Below, one piece after another: positions 36,704-50,955 of a stretch of DNA of 64,000 bases. The notes beneath the pieces are model-generated. The model made no database searches, was not told the DNA's origin, and saw only the letters and a list, made by a program, of their open reading frames with translations. Each line of letters opens with the position of its first letter. Position 1 is the stretch's first letter. Origin of the DNA: Smithella sp. (GTDB taxonomy: Bacteria > Desulfobacterota > Syntrophia > Syntrophales > Smithellaceae); assembly GCA_012510495.1 (NCBI GenBank), contig JAAZHX010000117.1, forward strand, positions 1-64,000. The letters run 5' to 3'. Made by a program: the position numbers and the translations under genes.

Positions 36704-37399
36704 TTACTTGTCCACTTCAAACATTTTTTTCTCCGCACCGCAAAGCGGGCAGGTCCAGGAATCGGGAATGTCCTCGAAGCGCGTGCCGGGTTCGATGCCG
36801 TTTTCGGGATCGCCCTCGGCGGGATCATAGACATAACCGCAGATGCTGCACACATAGCGGGCGGCGGCCTGAACTTTGGGTTTGGCGGCGGCCGCGTCGG
36901 CATCAAATGTCGGAGCGGATTTGGGGGATTTGCCGCCCTTGATGTTCCGGTAATAGGCGTACGTCATCGGTGTGCCTTCCCCCACCAGATCCGCCTCGAC
37001 AACCCTGCCCAGGAAAATCGTGTGAGTTCCGCCGTCCAGTTCGCCTTCCACTTCCGCTTCGGCGAATCCCAGAGAGTAATCCAGAACAATCGGCACGCCG
37101 GTGACGCCGATTCTGCTTTTGACGTCTTTTAACTTATCGACGTTACGGCCGCTTTTAAAACCGAAAAGCCCAATCAAGGTCATCGGCGCGGCCTCGGACA
37201 GGATGGAAACGGCAAATTTCCCGCTTTCCCGTATCAAAGCGTGTGTATAGTTATCTTTGTTGATGCAGATGGCCAGCGTGGCGGGCTTGGAGGTAGCCTG
37301 GACCATGGAATTGGCGATCTGGCCGTTAAAGGTTCCGTCTTTGCCGGAGGTGACAATATAGACGCCGTAGCTGATCTGGTGAAGTGCGGCTCTGTTCAT
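36704..37399 (-). CDS. Flavin reductase-rubredoxin fusion (high-molecular-weight rubredoxin)
   Basis: 231 residues from the ATG at 37399 (AGAGGAAAG upstream). Residues 1 to about 150 are a flavin-reductase-like FMN domain ([27 protein letters not shown]). An Ala/Lys linker leads to a complete rubredoxin: [20 protein letters not shown] and [10 protein letters not shown]. In anaerobes such Hrb proteins pass NAD(P)H electrons to flavodiiron proteins that reduce O2 or NO. No flavodiiron gene is nearby. Confidence 0.9.
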
Positions 37400-37492
37400 T
37401 CTTTCTTTCCTCTTTTCCGGAGACATTAATGTCAGCATCTATAGCCGAATTTTTCTTTTCATGCCATAAAATTTCTGAAGGTTAAAAATCTA

Positions 37493-37963
37493 TTGCAAAA
37501 CTTTCCCGAATGCAGATATGATACCCAGGTTTTTAATGAAGCTGTGTGGTTGAGACAGGTTTTGAACATTCTCAAAAAAAAGGCCCTTTATTTTGCCCGT
37601 AAAGAGTATTGCCGGTCGGCGATTTTGGAAAGAGCCGATCTGTCGGCCATCAAGGGAAAACCGCCGCCTAAAATTTTCATTGGACTCGGCCTGATCGCGT
37701 TCAGTTATGTTATCGGTTTGCCGGCGGTTGTGGCCATGGGCGTCGTCGCGGTCTGGGTTCGCAAGCCGCTGGTGGCGATTGTCGGTGCCCCTTTGATTTA
37801 CGCAATTTCCACATTGGTGTTCATTATCGGGATCCGGATGGCGGGGGAAAAATATTTCCAGGTGTTTTCCCGCTGGTTGACCAGGGTTATACTGGAAAAG
37901 ATTCTGGGTAATGATCTCCGGGCGATTATCGGAGAGGATCCTGACAACGGGCCGCGGGGTTGA
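37493..37963 (+). CDS. Small membrane protein of unknown function
   Basis: 156 residues if TTG at 37493 is used; a GTG at 37544 is an alternative and neither has a strong ribosome-binding site. The core has two or three hydrophobic segments (IFIGLGLIAFSYVIGLPAVV, MGVVAVWV and APLIYAISTLVFIIGI) and charged ends. No family recognised. A good terminator follows at 38026-38057, separating it from the lipid cluster. Confidence 0.6.
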   Translation: MQNFPECRYDTQVFNEAVWLRQVLNILKKKALYFARKEYCRSAILERADLSAIKGKPPPKIFIGLGLIAFSYVIGLPAVVAMGVVAVWVRKPLVAIVGAPLIYAISTLVFIIGIRMAGEKYFQVFSRWLTRVILEKILGNDLRAIIGEDPDNGPRG

Positions 37964-38078: not shown

Positions 38079-38351
38079 ATGTGTACAGTAGAAGAGACCA
38101 TCAGTGAGCTGAAGAGTAAAATCATTGCAACGCTGGGATTGCCGGATGTGACCCCTGACGATATCAAGGACGACGATCCGTTGGTCGGCGGTGAAGCGGG
38201 CATTGATTCCATTGATGTGCTGGAGCTGGTGATGATGATTGAAAAAGATTACGGCGTCAAAATCGACTCTAAAGAACTGGGCGTCAAGGTATTTGCCTCC
38301 GTTCGCACACTGGCGACGTTCATTCTGCAGGTCAGGGCAGCTCGGGCTTGA
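38079..38351 (+). CDS. Acyl carrier protein 1
   Basis: 90 residues. The phosphopantetheine attachment motif is GIDSIDVLEL with Ser44; the flanking acidic helices are typical of type II ACPs. GTTGAGGTGACCT precedes the start. It opens a run of acyl-chain genes: radical SAM, hotdog, second ACP, ketosynthases and thioesterase. It carries growing or modified acyl chains in the cytoplasm. It differs clearly from ACP 2 at 41367, so the two probably serve different partner enzymes. Confidence 0.88.
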   Translation: MCTVEETISELKSKIIATLGLPDVTPDDIKDDDPLVGGEAGIDSIDVLELVMMIEKDYGVKIDSKELGVKVFASVRTLATFILQVRAARA

Positions 38352-38409
38352 TGCATGCCGGAGCTGAAAATGGCCCCGGCTTTCCGAAGATCAAAAGCAG
38401 AATGTTTTC

Positions 38410-39762
38410 ATGAAGAAAGTATTGCTGATTTCCGCCAACAGGATGAAAAAGCCTTATCCGGTTTATCCGCTGGGGCTTGACTACGTGGCAGGCATCCTGC
38501 AGCCCCGTTATCAAATACACATTCTGGATATGAATTTTTGTCCGTCGCTGGATATGCTGGGGGAGCAGATCCGGAGGTATGCGCCGGACTATATCGGCCT
38601 TTCGATCCGCAATATCGACAACACGGACCCGATACACAGCCGGGGCTTCCTTTCCGACTATATCGACATGGTCGGGTCAATACGTCGGAATTCAAACGCG
38701 CCGCTCATTCTGGGCGGGAGCGGCTACACCGTGTTTCCCATCGAATTTTTACGGTCGCTCGGCGCGGATTTCGGCATCGCCGGAGAGGGGGAAAGGCTTG
38801 CATTGCTTCTCAACACGCTGGAAGAAAAGGGGGATGCGACGTCCATTCCCGGGGTGATTACCCCCGAAACCTCGACCGTCGGTTATCGCCCCTGGAAAGG
38901 AGATCCGCGTCGGATATTTGACGCCGCCGCAGGGTATGCGAAATTTTATATATCGTATGGCGGCATGCTGAATCTGCAGACCAAAAGGGGATGCCCGTTT
39001 CGATGCAGCTACTGCACCTATCCCCACATTGAAGGCGGTAAAATGCAGCTTCTGGATCCACAGGAGGCCGCCCGTCAGGCCCGCCAGCTGCAGGATGCCG
39101 GCGCCAAATATATTTTTGTGACCGATTCCGTATTCAACGCCAGTTACGAACACAGCCTGCAGGTGGCGCGGGCTTTCATCGATCGGCGCATCACCGTCCC
39201 CTGGGGAGGATTTTTCGTTCCCGCCGTTTCCCCGAACGGTTATTTTCGCCAACTGGCGGATGCCGGTCTCACCCATGTGGAATTCGGCACGGAGTCGATG
39301 TGCGACGCGATGCTGTCGAACCTGAGAAAGCCTTTTGCCGCCGCCGATGTCTTTACGGCCCACCGGCAAGCTCTGGCGGCCGGTTTGCACGTCGCCCATT
39401 ATTTTATGCTGGGCGGGCCCGGCGAAAGCCAGGATACGCTGCGGGTGACCCTGGAAGGCGCCGACCGGTTGCGTCAGGCGGTTTTTTTCTTCTTCTGCGG
39501 CATTCGCATTTATCCGCATACGGCTTTGTATGACACGGCGGTGCGCGAGGGGCAGATTCAGACCTCGCAGAATCTGATCGAGCCGGTTTTTTACCGCTCA
39601 CCCTTTATTTCCGACGTTGAAATTATCCAGAGGATTGAAGCGCATGCCGCCGGACGGATCAACTGGCTGATCGGGGCGGGGGAAGACAAGACGGCGCGCA
39701 TCCTGCCCAGACTCTATAAGCGGGGGCATACGGGTCCGCTGTGGGAATATCTCATCGCATAG
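38410..39762 (+). CDS. B12-binding-domain/radical SAM protein
   Basis: 450 residues. An N-terminal alpha/beta domain (about 1-140) begins VLLISANRMKKPYPVYPLGL, as in the B12-binding radical SAM family, though the DxHxxG cobalamin-His motif is not seen. The radical SAM cluster is C195, C199, C202 in CPFRCSYC, followed by the usual barrel (FVTDSVFN, FGTESM, FMLGGPGES). Family members methylate unactivated carbons or rearrange skeletons; many lie in lipid and natural-product clusters. Here it is 58 bp after ACP 1, so an ACP-bound acyl chain is a plausible substrate. Inference. Confidence 0.82.
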   Translation: MKKVLLISANRMKKPYPVYPLGLDYVAGILQPRYQIHILDMNFCPSLDMLGEQIRRYAPDYIGLSIRNIDNTDPIHSRGFLSDYIDMVGSIRRNSNAPLILGGSGYTVFPIEFLRSLGADFGIAGEGERLALLLNTLEEKGDATSIPGVITPETSTVGYRPWKGDPRRIFDAAAGYAKFYISYGGMLNLQTKRGCPFRCSYCTYPHIEGGKMQLLDPQEAARQARQLQDAGAKYIFVTDSVFNASYEHSLQVARAFIDRRITVPWGGFFVPAVSPNGYFRQLADAGLTHVEFGTESMCDAMLSNLRKPFAAADVFTAHRQALAAGLHVAHYFMLGGPGESQDTLRVTLEGADRLRQAVFFFFCGIRIYPHTALYDTAVREGQIQTSQNLIEPVFYRSPFISDVEIIQRIEAHAAGRINWLIGAGEDKTARILPRLYKRGHTGPLWEYLIA

Positions 39763-39880
39763 CATCGGTCCGGCTTTTTCGCGACGGAGGGTTGGTTGAC
39801 CTCGCGCCACCTTGCTTGATCGTCAGGTGATTCAGGCAGTTTTGTGCGGGTTCTAAACGGCTTACCCGGAAAGGCTTTTC

Positions 39881-40687
39881 ATGGAATATGGAAAAAAACG
39901 GCTGAGCCCCGCCCTGATTACAGGAGGAACGATTTTGATCTCAGCGTTTGCGGTTTTCTTTGTTTGTCCACTGCTTTCGGCCGCTGTGTTGTCTTTGTAT
40001 GTGGGATTGTGCGTGGCATCCTGCTTTTTCCCCCAAACAAACTTTCTGGGGCCCGTGATCAGCCGGGGACGAACGGGAAAAAATGTTGTGGCCCTCACGT
40101 TTGATGATGGCCCTTCCGAGGCAACAACGAGAAAGATTCTTGCCCTGCTGGATCGCTACGGGGCAAAAGCCACTTTCTTTGTGTCCGGCGTCAACGCCGC
40201 GCGCTGTCCGGATCTGATGCGCGAGCTGATCCGGAGCGGTCACACCGTCGGCAATCACTCTTTGAACCACGATCCTTTCCTGATGTTGAGGAGCAGCCGC
40301 GCGCTGGAGCGTGAAATTGTGGAAGCCGGGAATGTTTTGCAAAAAATGGGAATTGAGGCCCTGGCTTTCCGTCCGCCGGTCGGCATCGTCAATCCGAAGC
40401 TTTTCCCCATTCTGCAGGCGCGGGGTTTGTTTTGCGTGACCTTCAGCCGTCGGGCGCGGGACGCGGGAAATTTGCGCATCCGGAATCTTTCGGGCAGGAT
40501 TTTACAAAAAGTGAAAGGAGACGACATTGTTCTTTTGCACGACCGGCCGCCGCGAAACCCCGAAGACCAGGCCGTTTTATGCAACGAAATGGAAAAAATT
40601 CTGGCGGGCATCCGGGCCAGAGGGCTGAAAGTTGTACCGCTCGCCGAGCTGACGGGCCGGGACATCATGAGGCTGAGATCGTTGTAA
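39881..40687 (+). CDS. Polysaccharide deacetylase (NodB-fold), membrane-anchored
   Basis: 268 residues. One or two N-terminal hydrophobic segments (GGTILISAFAVFFVCPLL, AVLSLYVGLCVASCFF) place the enzyme domain at a membrane. The NodB motifs are ALTFDDGP (D75, D76), HTVGNHSLNH (H126, H130) and FRPPVG. It removes acetyl groups from amino sugars or related amides with a divalent metal. It lies between lipid-cluster genes in the same direction but with wider gaps (118 and 288 bp), so membership of the pathway is uncertain. Confidence 0.85.
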   Translation: MEYGKKRLSPALITGGTILISAFAVFFVCPLLSAAVLSLYVGLCVASCFFPQTNFLGPVISRGRTGKNVVALTFDDGPSEATTRKILALLDRYGAKATFFVSGVNAARCPDLMRELIRSGHTVGNHSLNHDPFLMLRSSRALEREIVEAGNVLQKMGIEALAFRPPVGIVNPKLFPILQARGLFCVTFSRRARDAGNLRIRNLSGRILQKVKGDDIVLLHDRPPRNPEDQAVLCNEMEKILAGIRARGLKVVPLAELTGRDIMRLRSL

Positions 40688-40762
40688 CGGCACGTTTTTT
40701 GTTGAAATTCATTTTGCATCCGCCTGCTGAAAAAATTTTTGGTTGAATAAATAATGACGGTC

Positions 40763-40904
40763 TTGTAAAAAGTAATTCAGGTCGTCACCCTGGCGAAGGT
40801 CGGGGCCCATAATTCATTGTAATTACTGGATGCCGGCCCCCCGACTTCTCGAGGGCAGGCTTCGCCGGTAAGACAAAAAGGCGCCGAAATTGAATTTTTA
40901 CGAA
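40763..40904. repeat. MITE-like or REP-like palindromic element, about 142 bp
   Basis: The ends TTGTAAAAAGTAATTCA (40763) and TGAATTTTTACGAA (to 40904) are near inverted copies. Inside, GTCACCCTGGCGAAG and CTTCGCCGGTAAGAC form a second inverted pair around a GC-rich core with GGGGCCC and GGCCCCCC. The shape matches mobile non-coding palindromes. No other copy was found in this window by eye. Confidence 0.6.
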
Positions 40905-40975
40905 TTCATCAATAAATGATATAAAATTTATTCTTTATTCGGGCGTGAACGAAATATCAGGGAAAGGAACAGGTT

Positions 40976-41344
40976 TTGACCGATCGATGGAAATTGCTCA
41001 AAGATGTCCAGTGGACGGCCTCTGGCGGCATCGAAGCCAAAGCCGAAGTGCCGGAAAATTCCGTTTGGTTTAAGGGCCATTTTCCCGGGGAGCCGATTCT
41101 GCCGGGAATTGCTCTTATCAGCACCGTCTATGAGGCCGTTTTGAAGGATGCGTCCCGCCGGGGAGAGTCCCTCAGAATTTCTTCTTTGAAAAGAGTAAGG
41201 TTTACCGGTCCGGTCCATCCGGGAGAAAAAATGACTCTGATCCTTGCCCGGGAGGTTCAGAACGGTGAAACCCTGTTTCGCTTTAAGGTGACGGTTCGGG
41301 AAACCCCGGTCTGCAGCGGACTGATGACGGTGGTAAAAGAGTAG
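40976..41344 (+). CDS. FabZ-like hotdog 3-hydroxyacyl-ACP dehydratase family protein
   Basis: 122 residues from a TTG start after GGGAAAGGAACAGG. The FabZ signature FKGHFPGEPILPGI carries the catalytic His; the acidic residue normally a few positions later (LIIEALAQ) falls on ILISTVYEAV, so its Glu equivalent may be shifted or missing. Typical role: dehydration of 3-hydroxyacyl-ACP. It lies 22 bp before ACP 2, a likely partner. It may also act as an isomerase or a non-catalytic hotdog. Confidence 0.8.
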   Translation: MTDRWKLLKDVQWTASGGIEAKAEVPENSVWFKGHFPGEPILPGIALISTVYEAVLKDASRRGESLRISSLKRVRFTGPVHPGEKMTLILAREVQNGETLFRFKVTVRETPVCSGLMTVVKE

Positions 41345-41366
41345 TAATGGAAAAAAGGAGACGGAA

Positions 41367-41639
41367 ATGCCTGAAAGCAGCGAACTGAAGGCCATTGTGC
41401 GGCGTGTGGCCGAAATCATTATCGACGAGCTCAAACTGGAAGACCTGACGCCGGACACTTTCAATCCGGAGATGGACCTGGTGGATGAACTGGGCATCGA
41501 CAGCATGGATCTGGCGACGATCGCGCTGGTTTTGCAGGACGAATACAAAATTGTCATCGACGAAGACGATTATCCCCGGTTGAAAACAGTGCGGTTGATT
41601 TGTGAATATATTGGAGAAAAGATGGCTATCCGGCATTAG
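41367..41639 (+). CDS. Acyl carrier protein 2
   Basis: 90 residues after AAAAAAGGAGACGG. The attachment site is GIDSMDLATI with Ser46. The DELGIDSMDL pattern is closer to ACPs of polyketide or aryl-polyene-type systems than to housekeeping AcpP (DSLDTVEL). It sits between the dehydratase-like gene and two radical SAM genes, 22 bp from each, so these four genes are probably one transcript. Confidence 0.88.
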   Translation: MPESSELKAIVRRVAEIIIDELKLEDLTPDTFNPEMDLVDELGIDSMDLATIALVLQDEYKIVIDEDDYPRLKTVRLICEYIGEKMAIRH

Positions 41640-41660
41640 AGGCAAAAGATCAATAACGTC

Positions 41661-42716
41661 ATGACCATGAACCGGCCGAAATTTTCAGACCTCCTGGCCC
41701 GCCCGGACGTCCGGGCGCGCTGGGAAAAAGTGCGCAGGTATTTCTTCCTGCGGGAATCTACCTATGACATGACGAATCGGTGCAATATCCGCTGCGATGG
41801 CTGCTATTATTACGAAGGGGACAAGCCCTTTGCCGCGGAGAATCTTTCCCCTGAAGACTGGCGAAGCCTGATGCGGGCGGAAAAGGCCCGCGGCATCACC
41901 TATGTGGTGCTGGCGGGCGCGGAGCCTTCGCTGACGCAGGATCTGCTTGCCGTCTGCTATGCTGAAATGCCGTTGGGTTGCATTGCCACCAACGGATTTA
42001 AAAAAATACCGGAAGCAATTGGCTACAGGATTCATGTTTCCGTCTGGGGCAACGACGAGACGAGCTTCAAAACGCGCGGTGCCAAAAATCTTCTGAAAAA
42101 GCAGATCGAGAATTACCGCAGCGATCCCCGCGCGGTCTTTGTGTATACGTTTACACGCGACAACATCGGCGAGGCCCATGAGGTTGCTGCGGAGCTGGTT
42201 GCCGCCGGCTGCCCGATGACGTTTAACGTTTTTTCCTCCCCGGTCGGATATGCCGGTTCCCTGCGCCACAATGCGGATTCTCTTTTAAAAACCCGGGAGA
42301 CGATGATGGCGCTTCTGAACCGCTACCCCCAACAGGTGCTTTTTTCCGCCTATAACGCCGTCGCGCACACGAGCGATCGAGGGCTGCACGATCTTTACCG
42401 CTGCTCCTATCCCCGTTGCAATCCATCACGGGACATCGGCCTGGGACGCTCTTTCCGCCAGTACCGGACAGACCTGAACTGGGATCGATCCGTGGCCTGC
42501 TGCGTGCCGGATACGGACTGTGACGACTGCCGCCATTATGCTGCCGGCTCCGCTGTGGTGACGGCAAGGCTCTACCGCCACGCGGGCGACCCGGATGCCT
42601 TTGCCTCCTGGCTGGATTATGTGGACACATATCTGGCCGTTTGGGTCATGGGCTACGAAAAGGGGGAGAATCTCTGCAACAAGACGATCCATCCTCCGCG
42701 AACTGTTGCCGGTTAA
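41661..42716 (+). CDS. Radical SAM protein, twin A
   Basis: 351 residues. The cluster motif is CNIRCDGC (C41, C45, C48) after an N-terminal helix. Further elements: LAGAEPSLTQD (the SAM-binding GGE position reads GAE), CIATNGF, and a C-terminal Cys group CSYPRC and ACCVPDTDCDDC. The latter could bind an extra Fe-S cluster. It lies 22 bp after ACP 2 and resembles the next gene in length and layout. Reaction unknown; radical modification of an ACP-bound chain is inference. Confidence 0.82.
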   Translation: MTMNRPKFSDLLARPDVRARWEKVRRYFFLRESTYDMTNRCNIRCDGCYYYEGDKPFAAENLSPEDWRSLMRAEKARGITYVVLAGAEPSLTQDLLAVCYAEMPLGCIATNGFKKIPEAIGYRIHVSVWGNDETSFKTRGAKNLLKKQIENYRSDPRAVFVYTFTRDNIGEAHEVAAELVAAGCPMTFNVFSSPVGYAGSLRHNADSLLKTRETMMALLNRYPQQVLFSAYNAVAHTSDRGLHDLYRCSYPRCNPSRDIGLGRSFRQYRTDLNWDRSVACCVPDTDCDDCRHYAAGSAVVTARLYRHAGDPDAFASWLDYVDTYLAVWVMGYEKGENLCNKTIHPPRTVAG

Positions 42717-42762
42717 GCCTTCCGGCGCGCCCCGGGATGGAACAAGGAGAAGACTCTGAAGC

Positions 42763-43758
42763 ATGAAAACGGTCAGCGCACTTTTGGATGACGGCTGGCG
42801 CGACCGCTACCGGCGGATCTCCAGCCTCAACATCCGCAGCTCGATTTACGACCTCACCTGCCGCTGTAATTTGCGCTGCAAGGGATGTTTTTTCTTTTCC
42901 TCGGGCGAGCATCAGGTTCAGGAAGAAATGGAATTACGCAAGTGGGAGGCCTTTATCGACCGGGAAAAAGCCCGCGGCGTGAATCTGGCAATTCTCATCG
43001 GCGGGGAGCCGACGCTGTGTATGGACCGCCTGGAAGCTTTTTACCGGCGCATTCCGTCGTACTGCGCGACCAACGGCCTCATCAAAGTTCCCCGCGACCG
43101 TTTTCCCGACATGATGGTGGGTATTTCCCTGTGGGGCAGCGGCGAGGACGAAAAAGTTCTGCGTGGCAGAGATACATTTTCCATTTCCAGCAAAAACTAT
43201 GAAGGCGACCCCTGCGCTTACTATCTTTACACCCTGACGCCCAGACAGGTGGGAAAAACCGAACCGGTCATCCGGCGCATTCGCGATGCCGGTCTGAAGG
43301 TGCACCTGCAACTGCTCTCCAACGACGAAGGCGTGGACGGATTTTCCTGGCGCCCCGAAGAGCTGCGCGATCTGAGGTTTGAAATGGATGAGATGCTGGA
43401 CCGGTATCCACGGACCGTTGTTTCCTGCCGGTATTACCACGAAATCATCACGACCGGCAAAATGCTGGGCCGGCGCTTCGGCTGGAGCGAATGCCCGTCC
43501 GTCACCGAATCCCTGGACCACCGGCAGCCGCCGGTCCGCCGGCTCATCCGTTTTTACCGCTGGGGAGCCGATCTGCAGACCGTGCACCGCTGCTGCACGT
43601 CCGCCACGCGCGACTGTTCCACGTGCAAGGATGGCGCTGCGCACATGAGCTGGGTCATGGTTAACAAGCGCGCCCACATGAACACGACGAAGGATCTGCA
43701 GAACTGGATCGAAGTATATGAGATGTTCGCCAGGCTCTACAAGTTTATTCCGTGGTGA
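42763..43758 (+). CDS. Radical SAM protein, twin B
   Basis: 331 residues after GGAACAAGGAG. Cluster motif CNLRCKGC (C35, C39, C42), then LIGGEPTLCMD and YCATNGLIKVP. Like twin A it has SVWG/SLWG after the core, an R-Y/H motif and a late Cys group, CCTSATRDCSTC. The two are paralogues that may act as a heterodimer or in sequence. It is the last + strand gene before the reversed SPFH gene interrupts the cluster. Confidence 0.82.
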   Translation: MKTVSALLDDGWRDRYRRISSLNIRSSIYDLTCRCNLRCKGCFFFSSGEHQVQEEMELRKWEAFIDREKARGVNLAILIGGEPTLCMDRLEAFYRRIPSYCATNGLIKVPRDRFPDMMVGISLWGSGEDEKVLRGRDTFSISSKNYEGDPCAYYLYTLTPRQVGKTEPVIRRIRDAGLKVHLQLLSNDEGVDGFSWRPEELRDLRFEMDEMLDRYPRTVVSCRYYHEIITTGKMLGRRFGWSECPSVTESLDHRQPPVRRLIRFYRWGADLQTVHRCCTSATRDCSTCKDGAAHMSWVMVNKRAHMNTTKDLQNWIEVYEMFARLYKFIPW

Positions 43759-43790
43759 GGAATCGCCGGCGAACGGTTTGAAACGGTTAC

Positions 43791-44597
43791 CTACTTGGGC
43801 CGGTCCACCTGAATAAAGGGAATGACGCCGCCGGTAACGCCGGGCAATTTGCCGTCCCATTTTTCAATGGCTTTCATCTGGGTTTCGATCTGGCGGAGCT
43901 GGATCAGCTCCGGCGAGATCACCTGCCGCTGCAGCCGGAGCGCTTCGGCTTCCGCCCGCGCCGAAGTGACCTTCTGCTCTGCTTCCACTTTGATTCTGTC
44001 CAGGTCGCGCTTGGCTCGCAGGGCGTTTTGCTCGGCGGTTTGTTTGGATTCAATCGCCCGGTTGAATTCTGCCGAGAATTCAAAGTCCGTCACGGAAAGT
44101 TCGACGATATTGATTCCGAAAACATGCAGCCTTTCCCGCAGATAATTGCGCACCTCCGTTTTGAGCGCCTCTCTCTTGGAGATCAGCTCCTCCGCCGTGT
44201 AGCGGGCCGCCGCCGCCTTGAAGCTTTCCTTCACGGCCGGATCGATGACGCGTTCATTGTAATTCAGACCGATGTTAGCGTACATCTCGCCGGTTTTTGC
44301 CGGATTAAGGCTGTAGTTGAGCACCATCGTCGTTTGAACGGTTTGCAGGTCGCGGCTCGCCGCTTCGGTTTTGGTGGTGGTTTTCTGCACCCGGACGCTC
44401 ATGCGCACCACCTCCTCGGCAAAGGGGATTTTGAAACGCGCTCCCGGCTCAACCACCCGGTTGACCTGCCCGAAGCGCAGTACGACGCCGCGGTCGCCCG
44501 CCTCGATGCTGAAATACGTGGAGAAAAAAAGCAGGATGGCGGCGAAGCCGATGATGGCGCCGAAGATCACTTTTCCCTGAATGTTTTGTACGTCCAT
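43791..44597 (-). CDS. SPFH-domain (prohibitin/HflC-like) membrane protein
   Basis: 268 residues after a GGAGGTCGAA site. One N-terminal transmembrane helix (KVIFGAIIGFAAILLFFSTYF) is followed by an SPFH/band-7 domain: VEPGARFKIPFAEEVVRMSVR, YTAEELISKREALK, then a long Ala/Glu/Arg coiled coil (AEAEALRLQRQ). Members oligomerise in the membrane and control proteases such as FtsH or organise microdomains. It is alone in reverse orientation within the lipid cluster, so its link to it is uncertain. Confidence 0.85.
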   Translation of the reverse strand: MDVQNIQGKVIFGAIIGFAAILLFFSTYFSIEAGDRGVVLRFGQVNRVVEPGARFKIPFAEEVVRMSVRVQKTTTKTEAASRDLQTVQTTMVLNYSLNPAKTGEMYANIGLNYNERVIDPAVKESFKAAAARYTAEELISKREALKTEVRNYLRERLHVFGINIVELSVTDFEFSAEFNRAIESKQTAEQNALRAKRDLDRIKVEAEQKVTSARAEAEALRLQRQVISPELIQLRQIETQMKAIEKWDGKLPGVTGGVIPFIQVDRPK

Positions 44598-44842
44598 GTT
44601 TCGACCTCCTTGCGTTCACCAAAGCAGGTTGCTTCCTGCGGACGCCTGCTCGTTTTCGGAATCGGAGACAACCTATCGCAAGCCGCGGAAGGTTGTCAAG
44701 ACAAATTGACTGGGGTTCCGGCGGCGATTGCCGCCCCGGGTTTTGGTTTTGCGGCCGCGGATGAAAATTATAATTGATATTTTTGAAAAGCTTTTGCATG
44801 ATGACGTCTCGTAAGAATAAAGAATCCTTGGAAAGGTAAAGT

Positions 44843-46096
44843 TTGCGCTTGTCCGGAAAAACACTTATTCTCGGGTATGACGCCGTTTCGTCGCTGGGAT
44901 CGGATCTGGAAATGCAGTGGCGGCGCGCTGCTTCCGGCGAAAGCGGCATCGGGCCTCTGACGCGGTTTCCGTTCGGCGACGATTTTCCCGTGAGAATCGC
45001 GGGCCAGGTCGAAGAAGTGGATATTCGTCCCTATCCTTTCCTGCAACCGCGTGAAATGGCTCACTGGACATCTCCGGTCTTTCCATACGCGCTCTTGACG
45101 GTTCACCGGGCGCTCGGGCGTAGCGGCCTGGACATTACATCCGGCATTGCGCCGCGAACGGCCGTCACGTTCAGCTCGGCCGTCGGCGGACAGGACGCGG
45201 TTTTGAAGGCGGACCGGCAGATGATCGCCGAAAACAAGCTGCCGCATCCCTTCGCCAATCCCAATTCCTGCATTAACATGGTGGGCGGCAAGGTGTCCAT
45301 TCTGACGGGCGCCACGGGTCCAATCTGCGCCACGATAACGGCGTGCGCCACCGGCGTCACGTCCATAATCATCGGCGACATGATGATCCGTCAGAATCTG
45401 GCGGATGTCGTCATTGCCGGGGCGGTTGATTTTCCGCTGGTCGAGCCGATTCTGGCGGGATTTGCCACGATGAACGGAGCGTACCGTCCGAAAGAGGGCC
45501 AGCCCCACGAGGCGCCGGAAAAAACCAGCCGGCCTTTCTCGGCCAACCGCCGCGGTTTTGTGGTTTCCGAGGGCGCGGGAGCGGTCATTCTGGCTTCGCC
45601 GGATTTTGTGCGGGCGCACGGTCTTGCGGCGCGCATCGAAATCGCCGGATTCGGCATGACGTCCGACGCCAGCCACTTTGTGGCCCCCAACCTGAAGACC
45701 GTCCGAAAATGCATGGAATTGACGATCGCCTCCGCGGGCCTGATGCCGGCGGATGTGGATGCGGTCAATGCCCATGCCACATCGACCAGAATCGGCGACA
45801 AGGTGGAAGCGGATGCGCTGGTCGGTGTTTTTGGCGGTAAGGTTCCGCCGTCGTCAGCCAACAAATCGCAAACCGGACATGCGATGGGCGCCTCTTCCGC
45901 CATTGAAACGATCCTGACCATGGAGGGGATGATCCGGGAGACGCTGCTGCCCACGATCAACCATATTCCCGATCCGGCCATGCCGATTGATTGCGTCGCG
46001 GAAGGGGCGAGAAAATTATCCCAGGAAATTGTCATGAAAAACGCATTTGGGTTTGGCGGCTGCAATGCCTGCCTGATACTGCGCCGGGTCGGGTAA
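44843..46096 (+). CDS. Beta-ketoacyl-ACP synthase 1 of the cluster
   Basis: 417 residues, TTG start after GGAAAGGTAA. Type II condensing enzyme with Cys168 in TACATG, His in VNAHATST and His in SNKSQTGHAMGA, so the Cys-His-His triad is complete. Claisen condensation of malonyl-ACP with an acyl-ACP is expected. It is followed after 3 bp by a second ketosynthase. Both are catalytically competent by motif, unlike KS/chain-length-factor pairs, where the second subunit usually loses its Cys. Confidence 0.88.
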   Translation: MRLSGKTLILGYDAVSSLGSDLEMQWRRAASGESGIGPLTRFPFGDDFPVRIAGQVEEVDIRPYPFLQPREMAHWTSPVFPYALLTVHRALGRSGLDITSGIAPRTAVTFSSAVGGQDAVLKADRQMIAENKLPHPFANPNSCINMVGGKVSILTGATGPICATITACATGVTSIIIGDMMIRQNLADVVIAGAVDFPLVEPILAGFATMNGAYRPKEGQPHEAPEKTSRPFSANRRGFVVSEGAGAVILASPDFVRAHGLAARIEIAGFGMTSDASHFVAPNLKTVRKCMELTIASAGLMPADVDAVNAHATSTRIGDKVEADALVGVFGGKVPPSSANKSQTGHAMGASSAIETILTMEGMIRETLLPTINHIPDPAMPIDCVAEGARKLSQEIVMKNAFGFGGCNACLILRRVG

Positions 46097-46099
46097 AGT

Positions 46100-47365
46100 A
46101 TGCAACCTCCGAAAAATCGTAGAGTCTTTGTCGTCGGATACGGAGCGGCCACGCCGCTCGGGGCGACGTTTGCCGAAACCTGGCGGCGGGCCGTTCGGGG
46201 CGAGGCGGGCTTCCGCAAAATCACCCGCTGCAAGGTGGAGTCCGCCTGCGACATCGTGGGGGAGATACCGGACTGGTCACCGCGGGATCTGGATTTTACC
46301 GACGCCAAGGAAGTCTATAACTGGAACGCGGCTTTTGTGATTTTAACGATGGCGGTTTGCAAGGAAGCGCTTGAAGACGCGGGGATCGTGATGGATGAAG
46401 CCACTTCCCCCCGCACGGCCTGCCTGATCGGATCGGCGCTCAACGGCTCGGACGCGTACCGCGCGGCCGTGCACGACCTGGAGCGCCGCGGTCCGCTGCG
46501 CGTGAGCCCTTACCTGCTGCCCAATCTGTGCGCTAATCTGCCTTCCGGCAAGGCGGGTATGCTTTTGAAATTTACCGGTCCCATCTTTTCACCGCAGGGC
46601 GCCTGCGCGTCGGGCAACCACGCGATCGGCATCGGGGCGCGCATGATCCGTGACGGGGACTGCGACTTTGTGTTGGCGGGCGGCGCGGATGCGCCGATTC
46701 TGCCTGAGCTGATTCACGGCTTTGCCAACATGAACGCTACGATCAAGGCGCATGAAGACGACCGCGCGGCTACTGATCCCGCGCAGGCCTCCCGTCCGTT
46801 CAGCATTGACCGCCGGGGATTTGTTCTTTCGGAAGGTGCGGGCGTCGTGGTGCTGGCCGCGCAGGAGGTGATTCAGGCGCACGGGCTTGAACCGCGGGCC
46901 GAAGTGCTGGGTGTGGGCTGGACGTCCGACGCCTATCATTACACCAGCCCCAATCCGGCGACGATTGTTCGGGCTTTACGGGAGACTATCGCGGATGCGG
47001 GGCTCCAACCCGTCGATATCCGGTACGTCAACGCGCACGGCACCTCCACCGCCAAGGGCGACCGGACGGAGGCGCAGTGCCTGAGAGAAATCTTCGGTCG
47101 TTGTCTCGAAAAAATTCCCGTTTCGTCCAACAAATCCCAGCTCGGCCATACGCTGGGGGCTACGGCTGCCATTGAGGCGGCTCTGGCCGTTGAAGGCATG
47201 CGCCGGGGAATTCTGCTGCCGACCATCAACCACCTGCCGGATCCGGAGTTTGCCGATATCGATGTCGTGCCGAACACGGCCCGTAAACAATCTCATGAAA
47301 CCGTCCTGTCCAACGCGTTTGGATTCGGTGGAACCAACTGCTGCGTGATTTTCCGGGGAGTGTGA
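46100..47365 (+). CDS. Beta-ketoacyl-ACP synthase 2 of the cluster
   Basis: 421 residues. Active Cys169 is in GACASGNHAIG, with His in VNAHGTST and His in SNKSQLGHTLGATAA. The N-terminal start (RVFVVGYGAATPLG) is typical of FabF-like enzymes. It starts 3 bp after KS 1 and ends 1 bp before the thioesterase gene, so KS1-KS2-thioesterase is translationally linked. The two synthases are clearly diverged, suggesting different acyl acceptors or a heterodimer. Confidence 0.88.
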   Translation: MQPPKNRRVFVVGYGAATPLGATFAETWRRAVRGEAGFRKITRCKVESACDIVGEIPDWSPRDLDFTDAKEVYNWNAAFVILTMAVCKEALEDAGIVMDEATSPRTACLIGSALNGSDAYRAAVHDLERRGPLRVSPYLLPNLCANLPSGKAGMLLKFTGPIFSPQGACASGNHAIGIGARMIRDGDCDFVLAGGADAPILPELIHGFANMNATIKAHEDDRAATDPAQASRPFSIDRRGFVLSEGAGVVVLAAQEVIQAHGLEPRAEVLGVGWTSDAYHYTSPNPATIVRALRETIADAGLQPVDIRYVNAHGTSTAKGDRTEAQCLREIFGRCLEKIPVSSNKSQLGHTLGATAAIEAALAVEGMRRGILLPTINHLPDPEFADIDVVPNTARKQSHETVLSNAFGFGGTNCCVIFRGV

Positions 47366-47366
47366 T

Positions 47367-47852
47367 ATGAAACCCAAGCCGTTTTTGCCTGACGTGTACA
47401 GGGCCGATGAGCGATTCGTCCGTGACCGGACCACCGGGCTGGTCTGGCACCGCACCCCGTACCGTGTGCTGTACGCGGACACGGACCGCTCGCAGGTCGT
47501 TTACCATTCCAACTATCTGCGTTATTTTGAGGTCGGACGCGCCTCGCTGATGCGGGACGTGACATACCCCTACAAGGCCATTGAAGAAAGCGGCTATGTG
47601 TATCCGATTTACGATTTGGGGTTGTCCTTTTACCGGCCTCTGACCTACGACGATGTCATGCACATCCACACCCGGCCGGTCAACCTGGAGCGCGTGAGGC
47701 TCCAGTTCGATTATGTCATTACTCACGCGGAAAAGGGGGATCTCATCTGCACGGGATTCACCAAACACTGCGCGGCCAACGCCGCCGGTCGCCCCGTGGC
47801 AGTGGACCCGAAGACGGTTCGTTTATGGCAGACCTTTCCCGATCCGGTATGA
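47367..47852 (+). CDS. Hotdog acyl-CoA/ACP thioesterase (4HBT/YbgC family)
   Basis: 161 residues; the start follows the KS 2 stop by 1 bp. The motif YADTDRSQVVYHSNYLRYFE corresponds to the 4HBT signature YxDTDxxGxVYxxNYxxyFE with the catalytic Asp. DLGLSFYRPLTYDD continues the family pattern. It would release acyl chains from ACP or CoA at the end of chain building. The N-terminus is about 25 residues longer than YbgC. Confidence 0.87.
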   Translation: MKPKPFLPDVYRADERFVRDRTTGLVWHRTPYRVLYADTDRSQVVYHSNYLRYFEVGRASLMRDVTYPYKAIEESGYVYPIYDLGLSFYRPLTYDDVMHIHTRPVNLERVRLQFDYVITHAEKGDLICTGFTKHCAANAAGRPVAVDPKTVRLWQTFPDPV

Positions 47853-47962
47853 AGCGTAAATCTTTGACTGTCGGGAAAGGCGATGTGAAAGCGTCCGCGG
47901 CTTGAAAGCGTGCGACATTTTTCGGGGCACCCGCGGCCGCCGCTCTGGATTCGGGAAGGGAT

Positions 47963-48550
47963 ATGATCACTGTATTCTTGATTTGTTTGTCGGCGTATCT
48001 GGCCGGGTCCGTCAATTTTGCGATACTGTTTTTCAAAATTGCAGGACGTGCCGATCCGCGCCTGAGTTTCAGCGGCAATGCCGGAACGACGAATGTCTAT
48101 CGTCTGGCGGGCATGCCCTGGGCGGCGCTGGTGTTTGCCCTCGACATCGGCCGGGCGATGGCTGTGGCGGCTTTGGCCGGGTATTTTCTTGATGGCGAAC
48201 GGCTGGTCTGGGCCGGCTTTTTTCTGGTTCTGGGCAACAGCTTTCCCTGCTTTCATGGATTCCGGGGCGGCAAGGGTGTGGCCAACTATCTGGGATTCGC
48301 GGTTTTGACCGTTCCCATCGCCGCTCTTTCAGCCGCGTGGATCTGGGTTCTGGTTTACTGGGTGAAGCGGACGCCGTTTATCGCTTCCTTCTTTATGGTG
48401 GCAGTGCTTTCGGCGGGGTATATCGTTCCCTTTGGAGGAGACCAGACGGTGATCGCAGGCGCCGTTGCGACTTTCGCTTTGATTGTTTTCAACCACCGGA
48501 AGAATATCCAGGAGTACCGCCGCAAACGCCACCCGTCCTCTCCGGAATAG
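47963..48550 (+). CDS. plsY: Acyl-phosphate:glycerol-3-phosphate acyltransferase
   Basis: 195 residues, about five transmembrane helices. PlsY motifs: AGSVNFAILFFK, then SGNAGTTNVYRLAG, HGFRGGKGVANYLG and a final FNHRKNIQEYR. It acylates position 1 of glycerol-3-phosphate from acyl-phosphate at the inner membrane. It lies 110 bp after the thioesterase in the lipid cluster, offering a route for the product into phospholipid. Whether this is the only PlsY in the genome is unknown. Confidence 0.9.
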   Translation: MITVFLICLSAYLAGSVNFAILFFKIAGRADPRLSFSGNAGTTNVYRLAGMPWAALVFALDIGRAMAVAALAGYFLDGERLVWAGFFLVLGNSFPCFHGFRGGKGVANYLGFAVLTVPIAALSAAWIWVLVYWVKRTPFIASFFMVAVLSAGYIVPFGGDQTVIAGAVATFALIVFNHRKNIQEYRRKRHPSSPE

Positions 48551-49773: not shown

Positions 49774-49851
49774 ATGACGGTTTGACATTTGCGCAATCGT
49801 CCTTACACTTTCCTTCAGGGAAAGCCAAATTCAAAAGACGGGGCGGACAAA

Positions 49852-50955
49852 GTGAAAAAGGTGTGGATAGTCGCAGGATTGCTGGTGTTTACACTGTCCT
49901 GTCAGGGCGGCAATCCGCCGCTTACCGAAGGGGAGGGGAAAATGACCGGTATCTCCGGAACGGAAAATACAGAGGTGGCCACGCTGGCCGGCGGATGCTT
50001 CTGGTGCGTAGCTTCCGATATGAAAAAACTGCCGGGCGTAATCCGGGTCGTTTCGGGTTATGCGGGCGGTTCGGGAAAAAATCCCACGTACGAGACCTAC
50101 ACGGCCCAGGGACACCTGGAAGCCGTGCAGGTCCACTATGATCCGCAAGCGGTGATCTATGAACAGATTCTCGGTTACTTCCTGAAGCATATTGATCCCA
50201 CGGACGCGGGAGGACAGTTTGCCGATCGCGGTCCCGGCTACCGCAGCGCCGTCTTTTACAGCGACGAGGCGGAAAGAAAAATTGCCGCTCGCGCCCTGCG
50301 GGCTATGGCCGAATCGGGAAAATTCACCAAACCGGTTGTAACGGAGCTGAAACCGTTTACGGGGTTTTATCCGGCGGAGGATTACCATCAGGACTATGAT
50401 GAGAAAAATCCGCTGCGCTACAGGACCTACCGCAACGGCTCTGGCCGGGAAGGATTTCTCCGGGAAGTTTGGAAGAAAGATCAGGGAGCAGGGCCGGCTT
50501 CAGCGCCCCTGTATGGGAAACCGGATGAAGAAACCCTGAAGAAAACTCTTTCTCCGAGGCAGTACGATGTCACGCAGAAAAACGCGACGGAACCGCCCTT
50601 TCAAAACGAATATGTTCACAACAGACAAGAGGGCATCTATGTCGATGTCGTGTCCGGAGAGCCGCTGTTCAGCTCTCTGGACAAGTATGATTCCGGCACC
50701 GGCTGGCCCAGCTTCATGCGGCCGCTGGAGCCGGGCAATATTTCGACAAAAGAGGACCGCAGCTTTTTGACCACGCGCACGGAAGTTCGCAGCAAACACG
50801 CGGACTCCCACCTGGGGCATGTGTTTCCGGACGGCCCGGGGCCTGCAGGCCTCCGCTATTGCATGAATTCCGCAGCCCTGCGCTTCATTTCCAAGGAGGA
50901 TCTGAAAAAAGAAGGCTTCGGACGTTATCTGAAGTTGTTTTCCCCGAAAGAATAA
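49852..50955 (+). CDS. msrAB: Methionine sulfoxide reductase A/B fusion lipoprotein
   Basis: 367 residues from the GTG at 49852, which gives a lipoprotein signal ([11 protein letters not shown], Cys17). MsrA domain with GGCFWC (C49, C52), then [13 protein letters not shown]; MsrB domain with [17 protein letters not shown] and the catalytic [11 protein letters not shown]. The MsrB zinc CxxC pair is absent (YVDVVSG). It reduces both S- and R-methionine sulfoxide, here probably in the periplasm attached to a membrane. Confidence 0.9.

Follow-up and report, generated by a model that had tools for sequence, protein, structure and literature searches.

Genes of the cluster

The window analysed here is a stretch of 64,000 nucleotides from a Smithella genome (designated G000; a 2.8 Mb draft in 332 contigs), and our subject is a type II acyl-chain cluster within it that includes three radical S-adenosylmethionine (SAM) enzymes. 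According to reading-frame, Pfam and NCBIfam searches, the plus strand from 38079 to 48550 encodes 11 cluster genes, from a first acyl carrier protein (ACP1) through to a PlsY-family acyltransferase. ACP1 (38079-38351; PF00550, 39.6 bits) carries a GIDSID site, and its best NCBIfam match, NF006617/PRK09184, scores 61.9 bits and lies below the cut-off of 70; ACP2 (41367-41639; PF00550, 39.9 bits) carries a GIDSMD site. The DSI motif of ACP1 is found in 41/41 aligned sequences and the DSM motif of ACP2 in 87/87, where, as for all motif counts given here, only open reading frames inside set length and identity limits were counted. Between the two lie a B12-binding radical SAM enzyme of the 'ladder' lipid family (38410-39762; TIGR04072, 377.6 bits, cut-off 360), whose CxxxCxxC motif is kept in 58/58 aligned sequences, a polysaccharide deacetylase (39881-40687; PF01522, 96.8 bits) with its DD, HxxxH, RPP and HD motifs in 37/37, and a FabA/FabZ-like single hotdog (40976-41344; PF07977, 41.1 bits).

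ACP2 is followed by two further radical SAM proteins, rSAM1 (41661-42716; PF04055, 31.2 bits) with a C-terminal CCx5Cx2C, and its paralogue rSAM2 (42763-43758; PF04055, 30.0 bits) with a C-terminal CCx6Cx2C. The twins share 28% identity, and in both the CxxxCxxC and the C-terminal cysteine set are conserved alignment columns, which suggests that the C-terminal cysteines hold an auxiliary iron-sulfur cluster. The twins match no SPASM model in the Pfam search of the window's proteins and reach no NCBIfam model at cut-off. A predicted model of rSAM1 has a pLDDT of 82, with values under 50 near parts of the two cysteine sites; a fold search with it places SuiB, SkfB and BlsE among the first matches, along with anSME, DesII, viperin, HydE and others, all at a TM-score of about 0.5 or less by query length. 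Because no NCBIfam model is matched and the fold matches are spread over many radical SAM enzymes, the sequences of the twins by themselves neither favour nor oppose a lipid role.

Downstream are two ketosynthases, KS1 (44843-46096) and KS2 (46100-47365), both with PF00109 and PF02801 and with an intact Cys-His-His triad that is invariant among 72 KS1 and 68 KS2 aligned sequences. A thioesterase of the YbgC/FadM type (TE; 47367-47852; TIGR00051, 86.1 bits, cut-off 68.7; YxDTDxS in 61/61) comes next, and the cluster ends with the PlsY-family protein (47963-48550; PF02660, 123 bits, cut-off 24.1; SxNxG..N..R and GGKG in 31/31). Between the last two, at 47825-47928 on the plus strand, tblastn, DNA comparison with the genome G067 and spacing reveal the relic of a gene that we call X. 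In relatives, X encodes a dehydratase of the polyketide synthase (PKS) type (PF21089 and PF14765) in this same place, and the His and Asp of that type are kept in 40/40 rows (36 distinct).

The hotdog retains the catalytic His of FabZ (His35; 80/80 ungapped rows of 81). At the place of the FabZ acid the window has Ser49, with Glu in 7/81 rows and Asp in 2/81; four residues on, or one helical turn, position 53 is Asp or Glu in 59/81 and Glu in the window. It is possible, judging from this alignment, that the acid has shifted to position 53. The protein fails the fabZ model (38.4 bits versus a cut-off of 155.15).

The original prediction, made from the letters of this DNA, had listed two ACPs, a B12-type radical SAM, twin radical SAMs, a thioesterase and PlsY, all of which domain and model searches confirm, together with two catalytically intact ketosynthases, as the invariant triads bear out. 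Its FabZ-like hotdog holds for the fold and for His35; the protein has no acid at the usual FabZ position and misses the fabZ cut-off. The deacetylase and the X relic were overlooked. It also described a run in one direction; the cluster genes do all lie on the plus strand, but the run is interrupted between rSAM2 and KS1 by a minus-strand SPFH/Band-7 gene (43794-44597; PF01145, 132.3 bits).

Conservation across genomes

Relatives were sought in 297 genomes of the phylum (G codes) and among named genomes, from which most of the fetched stretches (L codes) are taken. With rSAM1 as query (E <= 1e-10), 25 of the 297 genomes match. In 21 of them, the window genome included, rSAM1 matches along almost its full length with 64-100% identity, and all 21 also have rSAM2; the four other matches reach only 28-36%. 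The scan of named genomes found at least 244 relatives, of which 80 were kept with flanks of at most 10 kb. The resulting set holds 101 regions (21 G and 80 named; 97 distinct), with a longer-flank subset of 48 (45 distinct). The pairs G250/L080, G030/L085 and G077/L112 are duplicates, as is G083a/L094 among the 101.

The twin genes are adjacent in 20 of the 21 genomes, and in G077 KS1 lies between them. Several families of the phylum share the order hotdog-ACP2-rSAM1-rSAM2-KS1-KS2-TE. Within identity limits, the 48 longer-flank regions contain rSAM2 (48), ACP2 (47), KS1 (46), KS2 (46), TE (42), hotdog (38), B12-radical SAM (35), deacetylase (32), ACP1 (29) and PlsY (29); X, counted by any best match with paralogues included, is found in 40. 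The kept named carriers bear the titles Syntrophaceae, Desulfobacterales, Desulfobacteraceae, Desulfocapsaceae, unclassified Deltaproteobacteria, Spirochaetes and others, and rSAM1 also occurs in single bins titled Myxococcales and SAR324. The culture-collection strain Desulfogranum japonicum DSM 18378 has the hotdog-to-X part with an MMPL gene and a deacetylase. In the rSAM1 tree, the closest relative among the named genomes kept is another Smithella sp. (90% identity over 351 columns), and the 7 Spirochaetota rows cluster beyond what shuffled labels give, with the reservation that bins can be mixed.

Compared with G067, the 11 cluster genes of the window have dN/dS values of 0.09-0.24. Given these values and an order that recurs in several families, the association of the genes is, on the sequence evidence, beyond chance. 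The SPFH gene is found in only one of the 20 other G regions (G067) and in none of the 80 named regions, and we therefore treat it as a lineage-specific insertion that lies outside the pathway. G067 has the SPFH gene in the same place, together with a P-type ATPase recognised from its first residues only.

A partner locus on contig C74

A second set of acyl-chain genes lies on contig C74 of the window genome, at about 40.3-72.4 kb. It begins with a hotdog, a FabG/FlxB-like reductase, LolA, a CrtI/CrtD-like oxidoreductase (PF01593; none is encoded among the genes of 38079-48550), an ACP, a ketosynthase and an acyltransferase. There follow a B12-radical SAM enzyme (B12-rSAM2), a thioesterase, a fusion of FakA and FakB, a GT2 protein, an MMPL-methyltransferase fusion and an AMP ligase, and further on an HtrB-like protein, a BtrH-like protein, an ABC transporter, more ACP and ketosynthase genes and another B12-radical SAM; a partial ketosynthase of 331 residues is also encoded.

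This locus is tied to the twins by co-occurrence. At E <= 1e-80, B12-rSAM2 is present in 36 of the 297 genomes, that is, in 21/21 twin genomes and 15/276 others (Fisher 6.9e-23, kinship ignored), and in 12 of the 21 it lies on the rSAM1 contig at a distance of 7.7-19.9 kb. The 13 highest TIGR04072 scorers are all among the 15 genomes that have it but lack the twins, and in G285 and G232, for instance, the TIGR04072 gene and B12-rSAM2 adjoin.

The original prediction had noted that a ketoreductase and an enoyl reductase were missing and could be borrowed from housekeeping fatty acid synthase (FAS). This need not be so. The partner-locus reductase scores 284.1 bits against a FabG model (cut-off 273), and two FabK-like proteins are encoded on C74, the shorter of them (102.9 bits) just before B12-rSAM2 and the other at 244.3 bits, both below the cut-off of 453.1. 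By these matches, an enoyl reductase may be at hand. The view that the loci lack an enoyl reductase, so that unsaturation must persist, was dropped in light of the same two proteins.

A probable lipid outlet

The cluster PlsY differs from the canonical enzyme. It misses the TIGR00023 equivalog (104.3 versus a cut-off of 137.2), and the PF02660 matches in the 21 carriers fall into groups of 169-197 bits (11 copies) and 102-130 bits (12 copies, the window's among them), with one more at 21.5 bits. In a tree, the cluster-adjacent copies group with two more from the low-scoring set, in a clade that is separate from seven canonical ones (100/100); these are 7 of the 11 canonical copies, as those of G281, G047, G088 and G083 failed the motif filter.

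PlsX was not detected in 8 of the 21 carriers (six Smithellaceae, the window genome included, with G134 and G077), and all eight have a PlsB-like gene, below the model cut-off, as well as a cluster-type PlsY. In the window genome, the PlsB-like gene scores 472.8 bits (cut-off 618.5). Thus, housekeeping acylation in genomes without detected PlsX is, from gene content, probably the work of PlsB; a housekeeping role for the cluster PlsY was considered and dropped on account of the PlsB-like gene. With PlsX undetected, the cluster PlsY must also obtain its acyl-phosphate, the substrate described for PlsY (PMC5700162), from elsewhere.

The FakA-FakB fusion of the partner locus is the natural candidate for this source. 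In the window genome, PF02734, PF21645 and PF02645 each lie above the Pfam cut-off on one chain, while the equivalog cut-offs are missed (FakA_VfrB, 93.6 versus 975 bits; FakB1, 52.5 versus 350 bits). The five other Smithellaceae that were fetched all carry the fusion in their partner locus (63-86%), and among the 15 G regions that are left, 10 have it near rSAM1; 9 of the 12 genomes with a cluster-type PlsY show FakAB in the stretches covered. Among the 80 named regions it appears in only one at the threshold used, with flanks of 10 kb or less. Since PlsY uses acyl-phosphate, PlsX was not found and FakA-FakB lies in the partner locus, we consider an indirect exit more likely, in which the thioesterase would pass the chain to FakAB and FakAB to PlsY. 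Of the direct lipid outlet that had been predicted, the dedicated character stands, in the form of a cluster-specific PlsY clade; its directness is unlikely. In one FakAB carrier that consists of a single contig (G014), PlsX is present, and neither a PF02660 match nor a PlsB-like match was found.

We also considered whether the cluster could be the main synthase of a genome without FAS genes of its own. This was dropped, as the window genome has an acpP-fabF pair (fabF, 624.3 bits) and a FabD-like gene (251.6 bits, cut-off 260.9). No FabZ over the cut-off was found in the window genome. The housekeeping operon on contig C47 (15945-18328 of stretch L177) contains YceD, ACP, FabF and, by eye, GlyA. 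The usual neighbours of a housekeeping ACP-FabF operon are plsX, fabH, fabD and fabG; none lies between these genes of C47. By eye and by weak blast matches, stretches from G229 and G250 (L184 and L185) hold a set of FabD, acyl-CoA-dehydrogenase-like, FabG-like, hotdog and ketosynthase genes; in the corresponding stretches of the window genome (L183, contig C306) and of G067, only FabD, a reductase and, in the window genome, the dehydrogenase-like gene were seen.

Proposed pathway and alternatives

The genes, their conservation, their linkage and their intact motifs are matters of observation, and from them we infer every chemical step. We propose, with a probability of roughly 0.5, that an unusual acyl chain is made anaerobically by a type II pathway divided over two loci, of which the cluster supplies one half, and that this chain leaves by way of the thioesterase, FakAB and PlsY. 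KS1 and KS2 would extend the chain on ACP2, and ACP1 together with the B12 enzyme would handle a starter or another chain. Keto groups would be reduced by the partner-locus FabG-like reductase, and water would be removed by the PKS-type dehydratase that gene X encodes in relatives. The twins and the B12-radical SAM would alter the ACP-bound chain by desaturation, ring closure or methylation. The acid freed by the thioesterase would be turned into acyl-phosphate by the FakA-FakB fusion kinase, and the cluster PlsY would load it onto glycerol-3-phosphate or a similar acceptor, beside the PlsB-type housekeeping route. Finally, the finished lipid may be carried outwards by the MMPL/LolA pair of the partner locus.

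Several observations weigh against this proposal. For 5 of the 21 carriers, the fetched stretches showed no FakAB; 9 of the 21 twin genomes are without a cluster-type PlsY; and FakAB occurs without one in 7 genomes, 6 of which have a canonical PlsY. Each of the six Smithellaceae has the partner locus on a different contig from the cluster, and since the cluster of G030 is set more than 200 kb into its contig, the loci are truly separate in that genome. The conserved dehydratase X is only a relic in the window's genome. The partner locus also includes flexirubin-like genes, an HtrB-like acyltransferase and a BtrH-like protein, and these could point to a product other than a glycerolipid. Taken together, the original prediction is partly confirmed and its lipid reading supported in outline. 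More tentatively, and with some doubt on our part, anaerobic Desulfobacterota and some Spirochaetota would possess a second lipid line, parallel to housekeeping synthesis by PlsB or PlsX/PlsY, with a twin-remodelled chain made on ACPs of its own, single-chain FakA-FakB and a dedicated PlsY, that leads to an undescribed class of membrane lipid.

The strongest alternative, which we nevertheless hold to be unlikely, is that both loci together yield a polyene lipid of the aryl-polyene/flexirubin type, tailored by radical SAMs under anoxia and then exported, PlsY and FakAB being side branches. Clusters of that kind consist of ACPs, ketosynthases, a reductase, hotdogs, a thioesterase, LolA, an MMPL exporter and acyltransferases, and the partner locus shares all of these. 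It has an FlxB-like reductase, a LolA similar to LolA2_flexi and a ketosynthase of the PRK09116 type, besides the MMPL-methyltransferase fusion, the GT2 protein and the HtrB-like acyltransferase. All three models are missed at their curated cut-offs, however (FlxB, 292.7 versus 340; LolA2_flexi, 109.4 versus 125; PRK09116, 390.6 versus 470), and the two loci differ from aryl-polyene and flexirubin clusters in the added radical SAMs and acyl-phosphate enzymes. Aryl-polyene clusters are not known to include FakAB, PlsY or twin radical SAMs, which also counts against a polyene product.

Rather doubtful, too, is that the pathway in the window genome is already decaying, after the loss of the dehydratase and the insertion of the SPFH gene. 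What remains of X is its start, which overlaps the end of TE, and a stretch near its end, in different frames and with an in-frame stop; tblastn recovers codons 247-275 at E 2.6e-5 and codons 1-11 at only E 1.1. Judged against the DNA of G067, X has lost some 0.7 kb, the junction being marked by a short shared word, and the gap between TE and PlsY is 114 bp in the window alone versus 767-5463 bp in the other 33 of 34 regions (duplicates counted). The remnant is 55% identical to the X of G067, where TE and PlsY are 87% and 84% identical, and this low identity and the in-frame stop fit true decay of the gene. Misassembly as the cause of its absence was dropped on the same two observations. No second copy of X was found in the window genome, in a search that ran without a positive control. 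Either another enzyme would dehydrate the chain here, or decay of the pathway has begun. The low dN/dS of the 11 genes and their intact motifs speak against decay, with the reservation that a recent loss would not yet show in them.

We regard polyunsaturated fatty acids or hydrocarbons as an improbable product of the cluster. Such a product has been put forward for a related cluster in Desulfotalea psychrophila, which contains C31:8 and C31:9 hydrocarbons and for which an anaerobic route to polyunsaturated fatty acids was proposed (PMC2649909), and the CrtI-like oxidoreductase of the window genome's partner locus would be in keeping with it. The sequence thioesterase-FakAB-PlsY, in contrast, points to an ester lipid.

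That true ladderane lipids are made here is highly improbable. The B12-radical SAM does exceed the TIGR04072 cut-off, and published gene lists (PMC4790861, PMC2649909) give a gene-by-gene likeness to the set of Kuenenia, which comprises two radical SAM genes with successive numbers, FabZ, ACPs and FabFs (PMC4790861) and the deacetylase-like protein Kuste3351 (PMC2649909). With 377.6 bits, the enzyme nevertheless scores low for its family, in which the top 15 of the 297 genomes reach 482-651. Furthermore, both ketosynthases of the window are intact, whereas three Kuenenia paralogues have altered active sites, and ladderanes were not detected in D. psychrophila (PMC2649909). Finally, an accidental adjacency of unrelated genes, for which one could cite the SPFH gene and the two-operon layout that break the run, has next to no credibility, as it is already contradicted by the order kept across families and by a partner-locus gene that co-occurs in 21/21 twin genomes.

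Relation to known clusters

The cluster belongs, as originally predicted, to a lipid-type class resembling ladderane clusters, by its TIGR04072 match over the cut-off and by comparison with the published clusters (PMC2649909). It shares with ladderane-type FAS-II clusters, such as that of Kuenenia stuttgartiensis, the TIGR04072 B12-radical SAM, two further radical SAMs, several ACPs, FabF paralogues, a FabZ-like hotdog and the deacetylase; the CrtI-like oxidoreductase and the MMPL-type membrane protein, which may be further counterparts, are encoded here in the partner locus. Two outcomes had been named that would speak against a lipid cluster: neighbours in relatives that belong to unrelated pathways, and three radical SAMs that all match non-lipid enzymes. 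Neither was observed: the neighbourhood comparison shows linked genes of lipid type, and among the radical SAMs the B12 enzyme fits a lipid model.

What sets the cluster apart is the joint presence of the twins, the PKS-type dehydratase, the thioesterase, the cluster PlsY and FakAB. For comparison, we took nine regions around other TIGR04072-family proteins without twins (L165, centred on a weak rSAM1 match, was left out). None has a best match to rSAM1, rSAM2, KS1, TE, X, PlsY or FakAB at E <= 1e-15 and half coverage; a best match to KS2 occurs in one, and there are weaker relatives of TE, hotdog and ketosynthase as well as, in L166, an rSAM1-like protein of 28% identity. Because close twins, X, PlsY and FakAB are missing from these nine regions, TIGR04072 clusters are, by gene content, of at least two kinds, the window's being the twin-radical-SAM kind.

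With the Gram-positive FakAB-PlsY acyl-phosphate route, the proposed exit shares the kinase, the fatty-acid-binding DegV protein and PlsY. It differs in that FakA and FakB form one fused chain with linkage to an acyl-chain cluster, and in its host, a member of the Desulfobacterota that has a PlsB-like gene and in which PlsX was not detected.

Rattray and colleagues reported similar clusters in Desulfotalea psychrophila, Geobacter and Pelobacter (PMC2649909), and antiSMASH 3.0, citing their work, made ladderane lipids a class (PMC4489286). Outside anammox bacteria, Desulfobacterota and other phyla have been reported to express clusters of this class, whose function there is unknown (PMC9902471). 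Expression of Kuenenia candidate genes in E. coli reportedly failed to yield ladderanes (PMC4790861). What is new here is a variant with a defined gene set and a likely acyl-phosphate exit. A search of titles and abstract openings in a limited literature collection returned no description of twin radical SAMs combined with FakAB and PlsY, nothing naming TIGR04072, and nothing joining 'ladderane' and 'Smithella'. The exit route proposed here offers a testable step. If correct, it would add anoxic radical SAM remodelling of acyl chains, and the use of acyl-phosphate in genomes without detected PlsX. With the gene set divided between two loci in Smithellaceae, a cluster caller would pick up one half at a time.

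Neighbouring genes

Upstream of the cluster, a flavin reductase-rubredoxin fusion (PF01613, PF00301) is encoded on the minus strand at 36707-37438 and lies beside the cluster in 18 of the 101 regions. It is followed, at 37493-37963 on the plus strand, by a hydrophobic protein of 156 residues without a Pfam match, relatives of which are found near the cluster in 41 of the 101 regions. Downstream, an MsrA-MsrB fusion (49789-50955, plus strand; PF01625, PF01641) also follows the cluster in 5 regions.

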